This document shows positions 55,262-64,000 of a stretch of 64,000 nt of DNA, in pieces. The notes below the pieces were generated by a model. That model did no database searches and was not told the origin of the DNA. It worked only from the letters and a program-made list of their open reading frames with translations. Within the stretch, counting starts at the first letter, position 1. The number at the start of each line of letters is the position of its first letter. The translations under genes were made by a program, and so were the position numbers. The stretch is from the NCBI RefSeq assembly GCF_026409565.1, contig NZ_CP112881.1, positions 884,501 to 948,500 on the forward strand. The letters are read 5' to 3'. Source of the DNA: Sneathiella aquimaris (GTDB lineage: Bacteria > Pseudomonadota > Alphaproteobacteria > Sneathiellales > Sneathiellaceae).

Positions 55262-56032
55262 ATGGAAAATAACAGTACGAAAAAAGGTGTTAAGCCGGTC
55301 GGCGCTGCCAAACTGACAATTGATATATTGCGGGCGCTTTCTAATCGGCGCGGAGGGATTGGCGTCACACCCCTTGCGGTTCAGCTGGGTCGGTATCCCG
55401 GAACAGTCTATGCGGTTCTGAAAACACTCCAGCAAGAGGGGATGGTCGAATTTAATGCCGCGACCAAAACTTATAGCCTTTGTTTAGGCGGTATCCTTGA
55501 ACTGACGGGTAAAATGCGGGAAGAACAACTGGCGAAGCGAATTGAGCCAGAAATGAAATCTGCCGCCGATCAGTTTGGTGTTTGCTTGTATTTAAGCCAG
55601 CATGTGCGCCAGGACTATATGGTGATTGTCGCCTGTGCCCTTCCTGACTTGCCGATGGGTCTTTACGCGAAGGTTGGAACGCGCTTTCCAGCTCGTTATG
55701 GCGGTGCGGGCCGACTTTTGGCCGGTTGGCAAAGCCTGGATCCAGACGATCTTCGGCGGGCGTATGACAAGCACCGATGGGCCGGAACCCAACCCGCATT
55801 CGAGGTGTGGGCGGAGCAGGTGCGTCAGGATAGAATGGCCGGTTTTGCCTATGAAGAGGAAACCTTGCCTGAAGGACTGGCGACCGTTGTTGCCCCGATC
55901 AGTGTGGACGGTAAGCCGGTAAAATATATCATCAATGCCATCGGTCCACGGGGCGATATTGCCCATGGAAAACTTCCTGAAATTGTTGAAATGGTAAAGA
56001 AGCTTGCGCAAATCGCGGCAGAGAAGAGTTAA
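55262..56032 (+). CDS. IclR-family transcriptional regulator
   Basis: A 256-residue regulator with an N-terminal winged helix (residues about 15-75: LTIDILRALSNRRGGIGVTP...) and a C-terminal IclR effector domain (GLYAKVGTRFPARYGGAGRLLAG; GFAYEEETLPEGLATVVAPI). The start follows a weak ribosome site. It is followed by the monooxygenase gene, which begins about 73 bases after the stop, so it likely controls the use of a ketone or related carbon source. Confidence 0.9.
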   Translation: MENNSTKKGVKPVGAAKLTIDILRALSNRRGGIGVTPLAVQLGRYPGTVYAVLKTLQQEGMVEFNAATKTYSLCLGGILELTGKMREEQLAKRIEPEMKSAADQFGVCLYLSQHVRQDYMVIVACALPDLPMGLYAKVGTRFPARYGGAGRLLAGWQSLDPDDLRRAYDKHRWAGTQPAFEVWAEQVRQDRMAGFAYEEETLPEGLATVVAPISVDGKPVKYIINAIGPRGDIAHGKLPEIVEMVKKLAQIAAEKS

Positions 56033-56105
56033 ATTTCGGTTTTCTCAATCAGAAGACGCTGATAGGCTGAATGAAACTGCTAATAAGAAAAACAAGGAGC
56101 AGGTT

Positions 56106-57698
56106 GTGGCAAAAAATTCAATGCTGGATGTTATCATTGTCGGTGCTGGTTTCGCCGGGTTGTTTATGCTTCACCGAATGAAGCAAAATGGGTTTGCGGC
56201 CAGAATTATTGAGGCAGGCGATGGTGTCGGGGGCACTTGGTACTGGAACCGCTATCCCGGCGCCCGTTGTGATGTGGAAAGCACGGAATATTCCTATCAG
56301 TTTTCAGATGAATTACAGCAGGAATGGGACTGGAGTGAACGCTATGCCACGCAACCCGAATTGCTGAACTATGTAAATCATGTCGCGGACCGTTTTCAAC
56401 TACGGCCACATATTCAGCTTAATACACGGGTAACACAGGCCGTTTTCGATGATGAAAACGAAATATGGTCTGTGTCTCTGGATAGTGATGAAAAATTATC
56501 AGCGCGTTTTTGCGTTATGGCGACAGGCTGTCTATCGTCCGCAAACATCCCTGATATCGATGGCCTGGCTGATTTTAGCGGAGAGGTCTATCATACAGGA
56601 AACTGGCCGCATCATCGGGTGGATTTTTCCGGGAAAAAAGTCGGTATTATTGGAACCGGATCTTCGGCTATTCAGTCTATTCCGGTCATCGCTGAGGATG
56701 CCGGACATTTATATGTTTTTCAGCGAACGCCCAGTTATGCTGTTCCTGCACATAACAAACCGTTGGATGATGCTTACCGTGCGGCGGTAAAAAAGGAATA
56801 TCCAGCTCGGCGGGAGGCTGCACAGCAAACTCGCTCAGGGATGCTGTTTCAAGTGAACCCTGAAGATGCAATGACGGTCAGTGAGGCGGACCGGCGAGCT
56901 GAATATGATCGGCGGTGGAAAGACGGGGGACTGGCTTTTTTAGGGGCGTATAATGATCTTCTTGTCAGTCGGGACGCGAACGATACGGCGGCAGAGTATA
57001 TACGGGAAAAAATTCACGAAATTGTTTCAGACCCTTCAGTTGCAAAAGCCTTGTCGCCCGATACTGTTGTGGGGTGCAAACGTTTATGTGTGGATACCGG
57101 GTATTACGAAACCTATAACCGGTCCAATGTCTCGCTAGTTGATGTTAAAGCGTCGCCCATTGAGCGGATTACAGAGCAGGGTCTTAGAACACAAGCTGAA
57201 GAATATACGCTGGATACGCTGATTTTTGCGACTGGATTTGACGCTATGACAGGGGCCCTTTTAAAGATTGATATTCGCGGCCGTGGCGGACGTTCGATCG
57301 CGGAAAAGTGGGAAGAAGGGCCAAAGACCTATTTGGGTTTGGCGATGGCTGGATTTCCAAATCTGTTTATTGTTACGGGACCCGGAAGTCCATCGGTCCT
57401 GGCCAATATGATGCCATCGATTGAGCAGCATGTGAATTGGATCACGGATTGCTTGACCGATATGCGGGCAAAAGGGCGCGCTGTGATTGAAGCTGATCAG
57501 GTTTTTGAAGAAGATTGGGTCTCTCACGTGAATGCAACGGCTGGTAAAACCCTGTTCCCGACCTGTAATTCTTGGTATCTGGGAGCCAATATCCCGGGTA
57601 AGCCCCGAGTTTTTATGCCGTATCTGGGATATCCTGCCTATGTCAAAAAATGCAACAATGTTGCCGCCGCTGACTATGAAGGTTTTTCGTTCGCCTGA
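56106..57698 (+). CDS. Type I Baeyer-Villiger-like flavin monooxygenase
   Basis: A 530-residue FAD/NADPH enzyme. Two Rossmann motifs are present: GAGFAGLFML (13-22) for FAD and GIIGTGSSAIQSI (180 onward) for NADPH. Between them the Baeyer-Villiger fingerprint FSGEVYHTGNWP (157-168) fits FXGXXXHXXXWP. The start is GTG at 56106, with AAGGAG six bases ahead; an in-frame ATG at 56004 overlaps the iclR gene. It probably inserts oxygen into a cyclic or linear ketone; the substrate is unknown. No hydrolase for the resulting ester is adjacent. Confidence 0.9.
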   Translation: MAKNSMLDVIIVGAGFAGLFMLHRMKQNGFAARIIEAGDGVGGTWYWNRYPGARCDVESTEYSYQFSDELQQEWDWSERYATQPELLNYVNHVADRFQLRPHIQLNTRVTQAVFDDENEIWSVSLDSDEKLSARFCVMATGCLSSANIPDIDGLADFSGEVYHTGNWPHHRVDFSGKKVGIIGTGSSAIQSIPVIAEDAGHLYVFQRTPSYAVPAHNKPLDDAYRAAVKKEYPARREAAQQTRSGMLFQVNPEDAMTVSEADRRAEYDRRWKDGGLAFLGAYNDLLVSRDANDTAAEYIREKIHEIVSDPSVAKALSPDTVVGCKRLCVDTGYYETYNRSNVSLVDVKASPIERITEQGLRTQAEEYTLDTLIFATGFDAMTGALLKIDIRGRGGRSIAEKWEEGPKTYLGLAMAGFPNLFIVTGPGSPSVLANMMPSIEQHVNWITDCLTDMRAKGRAVIEADQVFEEDWVSHVNATAGKTLFPTCNSWYLGANIPGKPRVFMPYLGYPAYVKKCNNVAAADYEGFSFA

Positions 57699-57808
57699 CG
57701 GAACTATTCGTGAAAGACCGCTTGTCCCTTTGATTTCCATCAAAGCGTTCCCTAACTTTGTTGAGATACCCTGATCGAAGTGGATAACTTGTTTACAGGA
57801 GGAGTGGA

Positions 57809-58126
57809 ATGTTGGATGTCGCTGCAATTGAGCAAGAGCTGAAGTTGCGCCTGAGCACACTGAAGGACCGTGTTACAGAAATGGAAACGACCTTGCGGCA
57901 GGAACATAGTGCCAATTTTCATGAACAGGCAACCGAGCGAGAAGACGAAGAAGTTGTTGAAAGGCTGGAACAGGACGCCCTTGTTGAAATTCAAGCCATC
58001 GAAAATGCCTTGCGCAATATTGCAAACGGTCGGTACGGTCTTTGTACGGAATGCGACGCACCAATCGGCGAGCAGCGATTGAAAGTGTTACCCTATGCAA
58101 GTCGCTGTATCCAGTGTGCGTCCTGA
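57809..58126 (+). CDS. DksA/TraR-type C4 zinc-finger protein
   Basis: A 105-residue protein: an N-terminal coiled coil rich in Glu/Arg (about 5-70) and a C-terminal zinc finger with CTEC and, after a spacer, CIQC. It is shorter than DksA (about 150 residues) and resembles small DksA-like proteins such as YbiI or DksA2-type forms. GGAGGAG precedes the ATG. Members can bind the RNA polymerase secondary channel; the coiled-coil tip here does not show the classical two aspartates clearly, so activity is uncertain. Confidence 0.87.
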   Translation: MLDVAAIEQELKLRLSTLKDRVTEMETTLRQEHSANFHEQATEREDEEVVERLEQDALVEIQAIENALRNIANGRYGLCTECDAPIGEQRLKVLPYASRCIQCAS

Positions 58127-58512
58127 AACCCGGTGACTCGGTTTTGGTTCTGCTTTAACCCAAAGAATTTTACGAACCCCGGGCATTTCATGCGCTGACG
58201 GGGAATATTTTTTTCGGAACCATCGAGCGTTACAGAAATTGAGAGGTTGGGCGCGTGCCTTGGAATATGCCCAATCATTTTGCGCCGTTTCTTTGTTTTA
58301 GGAGAACGTCCATAAATCCGCCTCAGATCCGCATCCGGTCGCTCTGTCGCGAGCCTGTGCCAAAGGCTGAATTCTGGATGAAGCGGAGATGTCTCGGCAG
58401 TTGGCCTCTACCTTTAAAAATCCGTAAAATGACTGTTTGATAAATTTGCTCAGCGTTCTATTCTGCATTTCACAGCGTCTGGCGAAAATTGCAGAATAAA
58501 GGAACTGGCAGC
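58127..58512. other. 386-bp region without a convincing gene
   Basis: A plus-strand frame of 61 codons (58255-58440) has unlikely composition and no ribosome site. The 3' part must hold the promoter and leader of the ThDP enzyme gene. No RNA motif is recognised. Confidence 0.5.
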
Positions 58513-60156
58513 ATGAAAACCGGTGGACAGATAATCGTTGACTGCCTTGAAGCACAAGGGGTGGAACGCGTTTTTTGCGTGCCCGGCGAAAGTTATCTCG
58601 CCGTCTTGGATGCTTTGCATGATAGCCAGATCGACACTGTGGTTGCCCGTCAGGAAGGCGGAGCCGCGATGATGGCTGAGGCTGACGGTAAATTAACAGG
58701 GCGCCCAGGCATTTGTTTCGTGACGCGGGGGCCTGGTGCCACCAATGCAACATCGGGCGTTCATGTGGCAAAACAGGATAGTACTCCGATGATCCTGCTG
58801 GTCGGACAAATTGGCAGGCGAATGCGCGGACGAGAAGCTTTTCAGGAAGTGGATTATCGTCAGACCTTTGGCGATTTGGCTAAATGGGTCGAAGAAATTG
58901 ATCATGTCGACAGGATTCCTGAAATACTGTCGCACGCCTATCACGTTGCCATGAGTGGCCGGCCGGGACCCGTTGTTCTTGCTTTACCCGAAGATATGCT
59001 TACTGAGCAGGCTGATGTGACCGCAGGACCTTATGTCGAGGTTGCGGAGCCTGCCCCAATGGAGCAGTCTTTGGTCGCGATAGAAACGTTATTATCTGAG
59101 GCGGAGAACCCACTACTTATTGTGGGGGGAAGCCGATGGAACGAAGAAGCCGTTGCAGGGCTCACAACGTTCTCTGAAAACTGGGGATTGCCCGTTGCCT
59201 GTTCTTTCCGCCGTCAGCAATTATTTGATCATTTGCATCCTCATTATGCTGGGGACGTTGGCTTGGGGATCAATCCTGCTTTAAAAAGTCGTATCGCCGA
59301 GAGTGATCTGGTTTTATTGCTGGGCGCGCGGTTCTCGGAAAACCCAAGTCAGGGCTTCTCATTGTTTGGCATTCCAAAACCAAATCAGAAACTGATCCAT
59401 ATCCTAAGTGGTGCCGAGGAGCTAGGGCGCATTTATGTACCCGACGTGGCTGTCAATGCAACGCCCGGAACGTTTTTAAGCGCGATGAATGCGCGACCTG
59501 CGGTCAAAACCGCAAACCAAACGGCTGAAGCAGCTCATAAAGCATACCGAAACTGGACGGACAGTTTGCCTCAAACCGTGGGTGATGCTCAGATGGGGCA
59601 CGTAATGGAGGTGCTTCGGGATATGTTGCCGTCTGATGCAATCATGACAAATGGGGCCGGGAACTTTGCTATCTGGTTACATCGGTTTTGGCGATTTCGT
59701 CAGTACGGGACACAATTGGCGCCAACATCGGGTTCCATGGGCTACGGCTTGCCAGCAGCGGTTGCTGGAAAGTTGCGGTATCCGGAACGTGAGGTTGTCT
59801 GTCTGGCCGGAGATGGCTGTTTTCAAATGACAATGCAGGAATTTGGTACAGCCGTTCAATTCGGTGCGAAAATCATTGTGTTATTGATTGATAATGGTGT
59901 GTATGGAACCATTCGAATGCATCAGGAAAGAGAGTATCCTGCGCGAATTTCCGCAACAGACCTGCAAAATCCTGATTTTGCAATGATCGCGACAGCCTAT
60001 GGCGCTCATTCAGAAACCGTTGCCAAAAACGAAGAATTTTTGCCGGCTCTGGAACGTTCTCGAAAATCTGGTAAAGCGGCCCTTATTCATATAAAGACCG
60101 ATCCGGAAGCAATTACACCAACAACAACTTTGACTGATCTTCGAAACAGCAGGTAA
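58513..60156 (+). CDS. ThDP-dependent enzyme, acetolactate synthase-like
   Basis: A 547-residue protein with the three-domain layout of the acetolactate synthase family: N-terminal pyrimidine-binding domain with Glu48 in VARQEGGAAMMAE, a central TPP_M domain, and the C-terminal ThDP domain with AGDGCFQMTMQEF and IDNGVYGTIRMH. AAAGGA precedes the ATG at 58513; a TTG at 58489 is less likely. There is no neighbouring ilvN or other ilv gene, so it is not a biosynthetic acetolactate synthase in the normal operon. Substrate is unknown: pyruvate, a 2-oxoacid, or an oxalyl- or sulfo-compound are possible. Confidence 0.85.
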   Translation: MKTGGQIIVDCLEAQGVERVFCVPGESYLAVLDALHDSQIDTVVARQEGGAAMMAEADGKLTGRPGICFVTRGPGATNATSGVHVAKQDSTPMILLVGQIGRRMRGREAFQEVDYRQTFGDLAKWVEEIDHVDRIPEILSHAYHVAMSGRPGPVVLALPEDMLTEQADVTAGPYVEVAEPAPMEQSLVAIETLLSEAENPLLIVGGSRWNEEAVAGLTTFSENWGLPVACSFRRQQLFDHLHPHYAGDVGLGINPALKSRIAESDLVLLLGARFSENPSQGFSLFGIPKPNQKLIHILSGAEELGRIYVPDVAVNATPGTFLSAMNARPAVKTANQTAEAAHKAYRNWTDSLPQTVGDAQMGHVMEVLRDMLPSDAIMTNGAGNFAIWLHRFWRFRQYGTQLAPTSGSMGYGLPAAVAGKLRYPEREVVCLAGDGCFQMTMQEFGTAVQFGAKIIVLLIDNGVYGTIRMHQEREYPARISATDLQNPDFAMIATAYGAHSETVAKNEEFLPALERSRKSGKAALIHIKTDPEAITPTTTLTDLRNSR

Positions 60157-60426: not shown

Positions 60427-60972
60427 ATGAATACAAAAGACATCGTGTATATCGCTCTTTTTGCCGCGTTAACTGCTGCATTGGGAATTTTTCCACCGAT
60501 TAATATTCCAGCCCTGGGCGGGGTTCCGATTACGGCGCAAAGTATGGGCCTTATGCTTGCTGGTGGTATTTTGGGGGCGAAGCGGGGCGCGCTGGCTATG
60601 GTTCTGTTCCTTGTTCTGGTGGGGGTTGGCTTGCCTCTTCTTTCCGGTGGGCGCGGCGGTTGGGGAGTCCTTGTCGGGCCCAGCGGCGGTTTCCTTTTTG
60701 GATGGGTGATTACGGCTTTCGTGATTGGCAGCCTGATCGAAAAATACTGGCTCAGACTGAATTTTGTACTCGTGGCAGCTATTTGCCTGTTTGGAGGCGT
60801 ATTCCTTCTATACGCGATCGGTATTCCATGGTTGGCCTTTGCGGCTAAAATACCAGTCGAGAAAGCATTTTTTGGTGCCATTGCGTTTGTGCCCGGTGAT
60901 TTGGTCAAGGTTGTTCTTTCAACGGCAATCATTGTGGCCGTGGGGCGTTCCTATCCCTTAATTACCCGATGA
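60427..60972 (+). CDS. bioY: Biotin transporter substrate-binding subunit BioY
   Basis: A 181-residue membrane protein with about six spans, the S component of the biotin ECF transporter. ALFAALTAALGIFPPINIPALGGVPIT and GGRGGWGVLVGPSGGFLFG-type stretches are family marks (given here as starts of longer motifs). It is followed by bioM after 18 bases and then bioN, forming the complete BioMNY importer. An AAGG site lies 11 bases before the ATG. Confidence 0.95.
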   Translation: MNTKDIVYIALFAALTAALGIFPPINIPALGGVPITAQSMGLMLAGGILGAKRGALAMVLFLVLVGVGLPLLSGGRGGWGVLVGPSGGFLFGWVITAFVIGSLIEKYWLRLNFVLVAAICLFGGVFLLYAIGIPWLAFAAKIPVEKAFFGAIAFVPGDLVKVVLSTAIIVAVGRSYPLITR

Positions 60973-60990
60973 TTGGCGCGGGGCAGTAAA

Positions 60991-61668
60991 ATGATTTGCT
61001 TCAATGACGTCACTATCAGACTTCAGGATCGCGTCATTCTGGACGATCTTAAGGTTGAGTTGTCGGAGAAGCGAATTGGCATAATCGGCCTAAACGGTTC
61101 GGGTAAAAGCACGTTTGCCCGCTTGATAAATGGTTTGCAGATACCGTCAAGCGGGTCAGTAACAGTCAATGGATTTTGCACTAAGAAAAAAGGCCGTCAG
61201 GTACGGCGACAGGTTGGGTTCGTTTTCCAAAATCCCGAAAACCAAATTGTCTATCCAACGGTTGAAGAAGATCTGGCCTTCGGGTTGAAGAACCTGAAGA
61301 TCGAAAAAACTCGTGTCCGCGAGATCATAAACGAAGAGCTGGACAAATATGATCTGTCCCATCTGGCGAGCCGGTTGACACATCAGCTAAGCGGCGGTGA
61401 AAAACAGATGGTAGCCCTGATCGGGGTTTTAATTATGGCGCCTCAATATCTGGTCATGGATGAGCCAACAACGCTTCTGGATCTTAAAAACAAAAATCGA
61501 CTGATGTCCGTTATTTCAGGATTGGAACAGTCTGTATTGCTTGTGACGCATGATCTGGACTTGTTAAATGATTTTGACCGGGTTTTATGTATCCATGATC
61601 AAAAACTGGTCGCGGACGGATCACCTGCAGAGGTAAAGAAATATTATCAGTCCCTGTGTGGCCTATGA
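60991..61668 (+). CDS. bioM: Biotin transporter ATPase subunit BioM
   Basis: A 225-residue ABC ATPase of the ECF (CbiO-like) type. Walker A is GLNGSGKST, the signature is LSGGEKQM, and Walker B is YLVMDEPTT. The ATG at 60991 is used; a TTG at 60973 would add six residues. The stop overlaps the bioN start (ATGA). Confidence 0.95.
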   Translation: MICFNDVTIRLQDRVILDDLKVELSEKRIGIIGLNGSGKSTFARLINGLQIPSSGSVTVNGFCTKKKGRQVRRQVGFVFQNPENQIVYPTVEEDLAFGLKNLKIEKTRVREIINEELDKYDLSHLASRLTHQLSGGEKQMVALIGVLIMAPQYLVMDEPTTLLDLKNKNRLMSVISGLEQSVLLVTHDLDLLNDFDRVLCIHDQKLVADGSPAEVKKYYQSLCGL

Positions 61669-62282
61669 TCAGCCTGTATCATCATGGGGATACCGTTTTT
61701 CACAAATGCCCTGCGGGTGTCAAACTGCTGGCGTTGGTGGCGCTTTGCACGGGTGTATTCGTTTTTGAAAGTATCTGGAGCGTAACCGTCGCTCTGGTCT
61801 TGGTTCTAAGCCTTTACCCTTTGGCCCGTTTGCCTCTGAAATCGCTGTCAGATCAATTGCGACCAATGATGATTTTGCTGCTGATATTATTTCTGGCTCA
61901 GGGGTTGATTAATACCTGGTCAATGGCGGTGTTTATAAGCGTTCGGTTTGCAGCTTTAATCCTCGCGGCCGGGTTTGTCACCTTGACGTCTCGGACATCT
62001 GATATGATCAGCGCTCTGGAAACCCTGTTAAGGCCATTTTCCCGCTGGCTAGCTGTTGAGAAAATAAGCCTGGCATTGTCGCTCGCCATTCGTTTCATTC
62101 CCGTCATTGCCGATGTTACCCGTGAAGTCAAAGAGGCTCAGCGGGTTCGTGGCTTGGAAAGAAGCTTGTTTGCGGTCGCGATGCCTGTAATTATCCGGAC
62201 CTTGAAAATGGGGACGCATATCGCCGAAGCGTTGGACGCGCGCTCTTTTGACAGTATTGATCGCAAAGGGAAAAATGATTGA
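61665..62282 (+). CDS. bioN: Biotin transporter transmembrane subunit BioN
   Basis: A 205-residue ECF T-component (CbiQ family) with four to five membrane spans and the coupling helices carrying ARG-like motifs: EAQRVRGLE and EALDARSFDS. The ATG at 61665 overlaps the bioM stop. Its last 8 bases overlap the start of the next gene, a strong sign of one transcript. Confidence 0.93.
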   Translation: MISLYHHGDTVFHKCPAGVKLLALVALCTGVFVFESIWSVTVALVLVLSLYPLARLPLKSLSDQLRPMMILLLILFLAQGLINTWSMAVFISVRFAALILAAGFVTLTSRTSDMISALETLLRPFSRWLAVEKISLALSLAIRFIPVIADVTREVKEAQRVRGLERSLFAVAMPVIIRTLKMGTHIAEALDARSFDSIDRKGKND

Positions 62283-64000
62283 CGGCCTGACAGAACAGAA
62301 TTGGCAAAATGTGCGAACAGTTATTGGCGCACGGCGATCAGTTCGTCGATATTTGAATAGAAACGTCTCCCGCGAGAAGATTGAGGCGCTTTTGGATATT
62401 GCACGGTGGGCACCCAGTGGCGGTAACCTTCAACCCTGGACAGTGCATGTTGTCGAAGGAGCCGTTAAAACGCGGTTGGAGACTGAGTTAAAAGCCGCTT
62501 TTTTTGATAAAAAACAGGCGCCGGAAGATCAGTATTCTTACTATCCGAATGATTTTACAAAAGATCAGCAGGCCTTGCGTCAACAAGCAGCACGCTCATT
62601 GTTTGAAGCGCTTGACATCGGCCCACGCGATGTAAAAAGAAAGAGGGAAGAGCAAGCGAGAAACTACGGTTTCTTTGGGGCCCCTGTGGGTATGATCTTT
62701 ACAATTCCTAAGAACATGGAACAGGGCGGCTGGCTCGATACGGGAATATTTCTCGCTCATCTGATGATTGCGGCGCAAGCCTGCGGACTGGCAACCTGCC
62801 CGCAGGCAAGTTTTATTTCATATCACAATGTGGTCAGAAAGGTCCTTGGATTGAGCACTGATGAAGTGGTTCTGTGCGGTATGGCGCTTGGATATGCTGA
62901 TGAAAACCATCCTGTTAATCAACTAACCACCAAACGGAAATCGGTTGAGGCGATAACCGTTTTTCATTCAGATATCCCCGGCCAGCAAACGATCGATTGC
63001 AGAATACGCAAAAATACTGAAGATTTTTCTGGTAAAGCCGCACTTTTCATGGATGGCAAGCCCGTTAGCTGGCAATTGCTTGACCGGAATATTCAGGATC
63101 ATCTGGCGGTTTTGTCTCAACAAAACAAAGGTTGTTCGGCCTTGTGTCTGTGTCTGCCAAACGGTCTGCCTTTTATATATTGGTTTCTGGCGGGCGTTAG
63201 AGCCAGGCTCAATGTTCAAGTTATGGATACTACTTGGCCGCCAGAAAAGTTGAATGCGGCTTTGTCGATTATTGAACCAGGATTTTTTGTTTCAACAACA
63301 GAACGGGTTCAACAGCCGCAAAAATCGGTTGCAACAGAGGTTCGAACGAACGTTTCCGATGCTTTTTACACTGGCTTTACGTCAGGCTCCACAGGGCTTC
63401 CAAAAGGATTTGTTCGCTCGGAACAATCCTGGCTGGAAAGCTTTGTCTGTGACAACGAAGAATTTGGCCTTTCTTCTTTCGATGTGATCGCCGCGCTGGG
63501 TCAATTCTCTCACTCCCTTCCTTTGTATGCTGTCATTCGCGGATTGTATGAGGGCGCGACTAGCTTATTTTATTCACATTTTCGACCAGATCGGATCCTG
63601 CAGGATTTGAAAAAGCAGGAAGCGACTGTGATCTACGCTGTCCCCACCCAGCTTCTTGCATTATGTGATGCGGCGCCTGATGGTTTCGTAATGAGCAGCG
63701 TCCGTCTGGTGCTCTCGTCTGGAGAGAAATGTTCTGACCTGTTGAAAAGGAGGCTCAAAAAACTGTTCCCCCAGTCTCAATTTGCGGAATTCTATGGTAG
63801 CTCCGAGCTTAGCTATATTACCGTAGCCAAAGAGACGGAAAGCCCTCCTGCAGGATCCGTAGGGCGCGCTTTTGGCCCTGTTGAAATCGACATTCTTGAT
63901 GATCAGGGATGTCCGGTGAAAACTGGGGAGAGCGGTCGTATTCGGGTTAGAAGTCCATTTCAGTTTATGGGATATGCTGGACAGAAATTAGACGCGCCCG
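62275..64000 (+). CDS. Nitroreductase fused to AMP-forming acyl ligase (partial, runs off window)
   Basis: One reading frame is open from the ATG at 62275 to the window edge (575 full codons, no stop). Residues about 12-222 are a nitroreductase-fold flavoprotein: ARRSVRRYL (19-27), RWAPSGGNLQPW (44-55), and GMALGYADENHP near 202-213. Residues from about 235 on are an AMP-dependent synthetase: the phosphate loop TSGSTGLPKG (369-378) and YGSSE (507-511). The N-terminal ligase part ahead of the phosphate loop is about 130 residues. The gene starts inside bioN (8-base overlap), so it is translated with the biotin transporter. Substrates are unknown. BluB (dimethylbenzimidazole synthase) was considered and does not fit the SGGNLQPW motif. 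The C-terminal end of the ligase is not seen. Confidence 0.87.
   Translation, partial: MIDGLTEQNWQNVRTVIGARRSVRRYLNRNVSREKIEALLDIARWAPSGGNLQPWTVHVVEGAVKTRLETELKAAFFDKKQAPEDQYSYYPNDFTKDQQALRQQAARSLFEALDIGPRDVKRKREEQARNYGFFGAPVGMIFTIPKNMEQGGWLDTGIFLAHLMIAAQACGLATCPQASFISYHNVVRKVLGLSTDEVVLCGMALGYADENHPVNQLTTKRKSVEAITVFHSDIPGQQTIDCRIRKNTEDFSGKAALFMDGKPVSWQLLDRNIQDHLAVLSQQNKGCSALCLCLPNGLPFIYWFLAGVRARLNVQVMDTTWPPEKLNAALSIIEPGFFVSTTERVQQPQKSVATEVRTNVSDAFYTGFTSGSTGLPKGFVRSEQSWLESFVCDNEEFGLSSFDVIAALGQFSHSLPLYAVIRGLYEGATSLFYSHFRPDRILQDLKKQEATVIYAVPTQLLALCDAAPDGFVMSSVRLVLSSGEKCSDLLKRRLKKLFPQSQFAEFYGSSELSYITVAKETESPPAGSVGRAFGPVEIDILDDQGCPVKTGESGRIRVRSPFQFMGYAGQKLDAP

Follow-up and report, generated by a model that had tools for sequence, protein, structure and literature searches.

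Why should a flavin nitroreductase be joined to an acyl-activating enzyme in one polypeptide, and why should its gene follow directly on those of a biotin transporter? Both questions arise at the end of a 64,000-nucleotide stretch of Sneathiella aquimaris DNA (here called the window), which is part of a closed genome of 3.94 Mb (bases 884501-948500). A sequence-only reading of the window had pointed to this frame and suggested a job in biotin acquisition, for example a redox step on a thioether or enoyl group of a biotin precursor or vitamer together with activation of its carboxylate.

Results and discussion

The fusion and its operon

The frame has 708 codons and encodes a PnbA-type nitroreductase followed by an AMP-forming acyl ligase in one protein of 708 amino acids, as the sequence-only reading had it. 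The gene starts with the ATG at 62275 on the forward strand, overlaps bioN, which stops at 62282, by the 8 bases already noticed there, and is still open at the end of the window (64000); in the closed genome it ends 401 bases further on. In the part within the window Pfam recognizes PF00881 (Nitroreductase, residues 18-207, E 8.7e-33) and PF00501 (AMP-binding, residues 246-567, E 6.5e-44). A frameshift or stop missed between the domains, for which the region 62950-63050 had been singled out, can be ruled out as the source of the fusion, since neither is present there in the window sequence and stop-free full-length frames are found in five separate assemblies of Sneathiella and its kin (G000, G010, G015, G018 and the MAG locus L076). 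The two-domain protein is genuine. An AlphaFold model of the fusion encoded in L075, a record identical to L034 and G010, shows both halves folded, with a mean pLDDT of 86.5 and a low-confidence stretch at residues 230-234 between them, and the pTM of 0.60 makes the relative placing of the two halves unsure.

The operon order is bioY-bioM-bioN-fusion-thiolase (Table 1). The BioMNY set is complete, with PF02632, PF00005 and PF02361 in adjacent genes, and is predicted to form a biotin transporter. The ATG starts of bioM (60991; the list of open reading frames has a TTG at 60973) and of bioN (61665, giving a 4-base overlap with bioM) were picked by likeness to homologues. Beyond the window a thiolase gene (GTG start, 378 amino acids) overlaps the end of the fusion by 4 bases, so that the unit of two enzymes seen at first has to be corrected to one of three. 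A Rid-family gene follows 157 bases after the thiolase; in G010 a gene for an FAD-dependent amine-oxidase-like protein (DAO, L034:8996-10111) lies between the two.

Table 1. Features of the bioYMN-fusion region, in window coordinates
Feature	Position	Strand	Remarks
Promoter- or operator-like element CT[G/A]GACA-N-TA[A/C]AA	60276..60304	+	upstream of bioY; candidate, post hoc pattern
bioY, biotin-specific S component	60427..60972	+	PF02632, E 1.3e-34
bioM, ABC ATPase	60991..61668	+	PF00005, E 3.5e-25; homologues begin at the matching Met
bioN, CbiQ-type T component	61665..62282	+	PF02361, E 1.6e-16
Fusion, nitroreductase domain (PnbA subgroup)	62275..62970	+	about residues 1-232; PF00881; residues 16-230 align with 3GR3 and 7DP0
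Fusion, linker and AMP-forming acyl ligase domain	62971..64000	+	PF00501; catalytic motifs; gene continues 401 bases to L003:12902

Of 10 distinct bioYMN upstreams 7 have the candidate element, against 0 of 12 upstreams of other bioY genes; the pattern was derived from the very sequences in which it was counted, so that the comparison is post hoc. It occurs in the window and in L036, L045, L049, L053, L054 and L060, and in addition in L063 (the bioY upstream of G010). Matches away from bioY number three in 2.6 million strand-bases of loci. A look for palindromes and for 9-mers common to the sequences preceding bioY yielded nothing convincing. The BioR box has the consensus TTATMKATAA; with one mismatch allowed, its sole match in L003 (at 15093) is not by bioY, and control of the operon by BioR was rejected, as no box precedes bioY. 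Repression by biotin as in the Firmicutes discussed below is not transferable to this operon either, since the BirA of alpha- and betaproteobacteria is described in PMC5343134 as having lost its DNA-binding part. Further upstream (55262-60156) lie genes for an IclR-type regulator, a flavin monooxygenase-like protein and a thiamine-diphosphate enzyme, and L036 has a similar thiamine-diphosphate gene upstream as well.

Fused and split forms in Sneathiella and its kin

A first scan of genome contigs with a single protein query gave no relative. The full-length fusion was then found in 4 of 25 genomes of the family (G000, G010, G015 and G018, the last being L077, a record named Sneathiella), each with bioM-bioN and bioY before the fusion and the thiolase after it, bioY of G010 being divided over two contig ends. 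The short contig of L076 carries bioM-bioN-fusion-thiolase. The two genomes G004 (L081, the record of S. glossodoripedis) and G005 have a separate gene for each of nitroreductase, ligase and thiolase, overlapping and in the order of the fused form, with bioY elsewhere; the upstream element was not found before these split operons, and its control of them was rejected. The sequence-only reading had named, as evidence against itself, homologues whose domains are without exception separate and without a link to bioMNY. This is not the pattern seen: the fusion is conserved next to bioMNY, although the linkage is not obligatory, since the trio of G004 and G005 is split and away from bioY.

The ligase occurs in 6 of the 25 genomes, which makes the set an accessory trait of the genus. 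A quick tree unites the five fused ligases in one group (SH-aLRT 99) and puts the two split ones with Curvivirga; the thiolase tree is broadly similar if less resolved. A single fusion event would fit these sequences.

Distribution of the ligase-thiolase pair

The ligase alignment, used without regard to bioY, gave 11 of 385 genomes of the class and 49 named loci. Sixty loci were scored with small HMMs built for the purpose, L075, L077 and L081 being removed as repeats of L034, L035 and L038. Four (L118, L121, L122, L123) did not reach the 180 bits set as threshold for the ligase, leaving 56, and six had no adjacent thiolase (L069, L070, L071, L074, L083, L119), so that 50 ligase-thiolase pairs were obtained. 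bioY is on the locus in 40 of these, a nitroreductase in 27 and the fusion in five; L067-L074 were scored with flanks of 1.5 kb only, and the widened loci of G118, G074, G046 and G177 contain no nitroreductase. The thiolase alignment gave 13 of 398 genomes of the phylum. All 12 besides G000 have a ligase match beside the thiolase, and of the 13 loci, G000 included, 8 have bioY and 4 a nitroreductase (6 of the 14 table rows, L202, L205 and L208-L211, repeat records already counted). This search also added G637 (L200), a new and convergent nitroreductase case.

The clusters of Comamonas, Delftia, Diaphorobacter and Rhodoferax combine all six functions of the Sneathiella operon, in the first three genera in the order bioM-bioN-bioY-ligase-thiolase-nitroreductase. 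In contrast to the Sneathiella fusion, the nitroreductase has a gene of its own behind that of the thiolase and falls in another clade in the tree; in Rhodoferax and some of its kin it has the opposite orientation.

Several neighbours deserve mention in their own right. A MaoC-like dehydratase gene follows the thiolase in L080 (9561-9995, PF01575, E 1.3e-7) and has BLAST-clustered homologues in the same place in L082 (6379-6810; not recognized by Pfam) and L087, with no bioY on these three loci. Subunits of biotin-dependent carboxylases and an acyl-CoA dehydrogenase are encoded directly before bioY in L036 (2042-6849) and L035 (120-2023), and Rhodoferax L107 has an HMG-CoA lyase gene nearby. 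The S. aquimaris genome (L176:7614-9884) as well as L177 and L178 contain a solitary bioY by a topoisomerase-like gene of 742 amino acids, with a different AMP ligase directly upstream, an arrangement repeated in L041, L043, L044, L046, L047, L048, L051, L052, L056 and L057; the S. aquimaris copy is divergent (53 bits). The best model for the different AMP ligase is PRK06155, below cut-off.

The nitroreductase half

Over its whole length, the middle insertion included, the nitroreductase half can be aligned with 3GR3 and 7DP0 with few gaps, and it also matches 2WZV. The fold together with an insertion as in 3GR3, 2WZV and NfnB places it in the PnbA subgroup as named in PMC8484813, and FMN- and NAD(P)H-dependent reduction is predicted for it. 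The PnbA enzymes 3GR3, 7DP0-2 and 2WZV are stand-alone chains, whereas here the domain is fused to a ligase.

PnbA-type nitroreductases (at least 150 bits) on 27 of the 50 loci compare with about 0.006 expected per 15 kb locus, a figure derived from 53 such enzymes in about 134 Mb with rounded genome sizes and linked copies counted. Their absence from the other 23 loci, among them those of Bacillus, Roseibium and Stappia, indicates that the nitroreductase is not needed everywhere; Curvivirga loci lack it too. Related loci are not independent, and about four linkages can be told apart: Sneathiella, Comamonadaceae, the Ramlibacter MAG L083 (where the thiolase is not adjacent) and G637. There may be fewer, because the G637 enzyme groups with those of Comamonadaceae (92/77) and because an AU test is compatible with one Sneathiella-Comamonadaceae clade (not rejected, p 0.207). 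A first FastTree had joined these two groups, together with three unlinked nitroreductases, whereas larger trees place them apart. For 4 of 8 Comamonadaceae genomes examined (G417, G422, G423, G425), a nitroreductase other than the linked one matches those of Sneathiella best. From the sequences, separate recruitment in the two groups is likely.

Ligase and thiolase

Among 109 models the ligase half is matched best by PRK07638 (300 bits, below the curated cut-off of 518), so that by sequence it is a relative and not a member of this family. The thiolase scores best with the general thiolase model TIGR01930 (253.8 bits, above its cut-off) and next best with PRK06690 (216.7 bits, below the curated cut-off of 498). 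We take PRK07638 and PRK06690 to be the YhfT and YhfS families. The sequence-only reading had mentioned acyl-CoA ligases beside BioMNY in alphaproteobacteria; the similarity seen here, for ligase and thiolase alike, is to the YhfT/YhfS pair already described next to bioY in Firmicutes. In S. aureus both bioY and yhfS-yhfT are repressed by biotin-loaded BirA according to PMC6391492 and PMC7235819, and the review PMC11089781 gives the same for B. subtilis; the Firmicute relatives would accordingly be switched on when biotin is short. The Bacillus loci L103, L105 and L110 have the order bioY-ligase-thiolase and likewise combine an AMP ligase with a baseless thiolase. In contrast to Sneathiella they lack the nitroreductase, keep the Asn of the NEAF motif and have a solitary bioY without bioMN on the locus. 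The ligase-thiolase pair beside bioY is an already known gene set. What is added here, and was not met among the open-access papers listed, is the fused nitroreductase, its repeated linkage and a family-wide loss of the thiolase base; among those papers none was recognized as dealing with this fusion or with a yhfT-yhfS function.

The adenylation motifs and the C-terminal catalytic Lys are conserved in all 51 ligases compared, as are a signature Arg and a Ser-Trp after the P-loop motif, and from its sequence the ligase is intact. The best 50 structure matches listed for the fused model are adenylate-forming enzymes only (e.g. MenE) and are uninformative on the substrate.

Thiolases use a nucleophilic Cys89, an oxyanion hole of Asn316 and His348 and the base Cys378, and within the superfamily two His, or Asn and His, occur (PMC3406046). 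In the thiolases studied here the nucleophile and the His of the GH(P) motif are kept in 49 of 49 readable sequences (L079 has GHA), while the base Cys of the CxG motif is replaced by Ala or Gly in 57 of 57 (49 of the first set and 8 new ones; those of L101 and L112 are truncated). The position of Asn316, in the NEAF motif, has Asn in Bacillus, His in Comamonadaceae and Met in Sneathiella, which gives Asn-His, His-His and Cys-Met-His respectively. Because of this Met neither the normal thiolase nor the normal ketosynthase triad is complete in Sneathiella, whose enzymes do not show the ketosynthase-type combination of Cys with His-His or His-Asn. The model of the thiolase has a confident thiolase fold (pLDDT 90.9), nearest to biosynthetic thiolases (TM about 0.9). 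We infer that condensation would still be open to such a baseless enzyme if decarboxylation supplied the carbanion, and loss of the base throughout is what would be expected if no proton is abstracted.

Biotin status of the hosts

BioB scored above cut-off in 16 of 52 genomes examined. Among the ligase-bearing ones, a chosen sample of 33 (10 genomes with G handles and 23 behind named loci, several of them MAGs, with L076 and L078 left out), it is present in 10 and missing from 23, that of S. aquimaris included. BioD scored above cut-off in only 5 of the 33; as this count is below that of BioB, the BioD model may miss some. BioY is found in 30 of the 33, with no match in G406, G412 and G424. 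Among the fusion genomes G010 has BioB, and G000, G015 and G018 lack it. Neither BioB nor BioD is above cut-off in the S. aquimaris genome, which is therefore probably that of a biotin auxotroph.

Possible functions

We tentatively propose, at well short of an even chance, that the cell takes up a biotin vitamer whose side chain the three enzymes then activate and remodel, with the nitroreductase domain acting in the redox step on a carbon-carbon double bond. The operon would import a compound with the biotin ring, and ligase, thiolase-fold condensing enzyme and flavin domain would rebuild its carboxyl side chain to give usable biotin. The ligase might convert a vitamer with a shortened chain, for example bisnorbiotin, to its acyl-CoA, to which the thiolase, with its nucleophile kept and its proton-abstracting Cys lost, might add two carbons by a ketosynthase-like decarboxylative condensation. 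Housekeeping ketoreductase and dehydratase could then lead to the enoyl-CoA (no dedicated ketoreductase gene was seen at the loci), the double bond of which the FMN domain would reduce, before biotinyl-CoA is released or hydrolysed. Fusion may keep the redox and activating steps on a trace vitamin together. The role in biotin acquisition suggested earlier fits the link of the fusion with bioMNY; for its redox part nothing in the data favours a thioether, and the enoyl alternative is a candidate that fits the neighbours better.

Salvage is favoured because acquisition is what the hosts without BioB and the repression of the Firmicute relatives by biotin point to. The gene overlaps, five fusions and two split genomes with the same order, and the MaoC-like gene of L080 and its homologues are counted in its support, together with the shares of loci with bioY and nitroreductase and the missing thiolase base. 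Against it stand the ligase genomes with BioB (10 of 33) or without a BioY match (3 of 33), the 23 loci without nitroreductase, the trio of G004 and G005 away from bioY and without the upstream element, and the Met of Sneathiella. Our estimate is kept low by this Met, by the sets located away from bioY, by the hosts that do without nitroreductase and by a substrate that is inferred.

Other functions would account for part of these observations. A response to biotin shortage, in which fatty or other acids are handled in order to spare the biotin-dependent acetyl-CoA carboxylase and biotin itself is never touched, seems rather unlikely: ligase and thiolase do score like general acyl-CoA enzymes, and bioY of L036 has genes for a carboxylase and an acyl-CoA dehydrogenase before it, yet the thiolase base is gone throughout and 40 of 50 loci are linked to a biotin importer rather than to fatty-acid genes. 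Catabolism of the side chain to bisnorbiotin by beta-oxidation would find suitable parts in ligase, thiolase, MaoC-like gene and acyl-CoA dehydrogenase. Nitroreductase-fold enzymes can desaturate, e.g. albonoursin synthase, whose structure 8uc3 is a weak match. This direction is nevertheless unlikely, as biotin represses the Firmicute relatives, the 23 hosts without BioB would destroy a vitamin they must import, and thiolysis, too, depends on the base that is missing from the thiolase (PMC3406046). That the ligase merely traps imported biotin in the cell as biotinyl-CoA or as an enzyme-bound thioester would agree with its gene directly following those of the transporter and with a different AMP ligase before a solitary bioY in 10 other Sneathiella loci; we consider it quite unlikely, since it leaves the nitroreductase unexplained and likewise the ligase genes away from bioY.

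If the nitroreductase half were an ordinary broad reductase, its fusion irrelevant to biotin, only ligase and thiolase would matter. PnbA members reduce many nitro compounds (PMC8484813) and 23 of 50 loci do without one, but fusion in five assemblies, a split form of the same order in two genomes and renewed linkage in Comamonadaceae, L083 and G637 make this improbable. Highly improbable, finally, is a set that makes pimeloyl-CoA for BioF from glutarate and acetyl units. Acid activation and condensation would suffice for it, and the ketosynthase BioZ of alphaproteobacteria, likewise a condensing enzyme of the thiolase superfamily in biotin metabolism, makes pimeloyl-ACP (PMC7645780). The enzyme here belongs to the thiolase sequence family and not to KAS III, and its fold is nearest to thiolases. 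The lack of BioB in 23 of 33 ligase genomes argues against pimelate for de novo biotin as the general role; in S. aquimaris, without BioB and BioD, it is excluded, barring another route of sulfur insertion.

Implications

The recurrent nitroreductase, the loss of the thiolase base and the many hosts without BioB narrow down the chemistry, towards an acid that is worked on by cells obliged to take up the biotin ring; the fusion offers two of the steps on one assayable protein. The salvage proposal can be sharpened to a repair of the vitamin, in which nor-biotins are imported and the valeryl chain is rebuilt by the CoA ligase, a decarboxylating ketosynthase-like thiolase and the nitroreductase as enoyl-CoA reductase; in this exact form we regard it as doubtful. 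If it were true, the first and last steps would reside on one protein in Sneathiella, the yhfT-yhfS genes of the BirA regulon would gain a role, and part of the natural biotin supply would consist of compounds that are missed by biotin-only assays.
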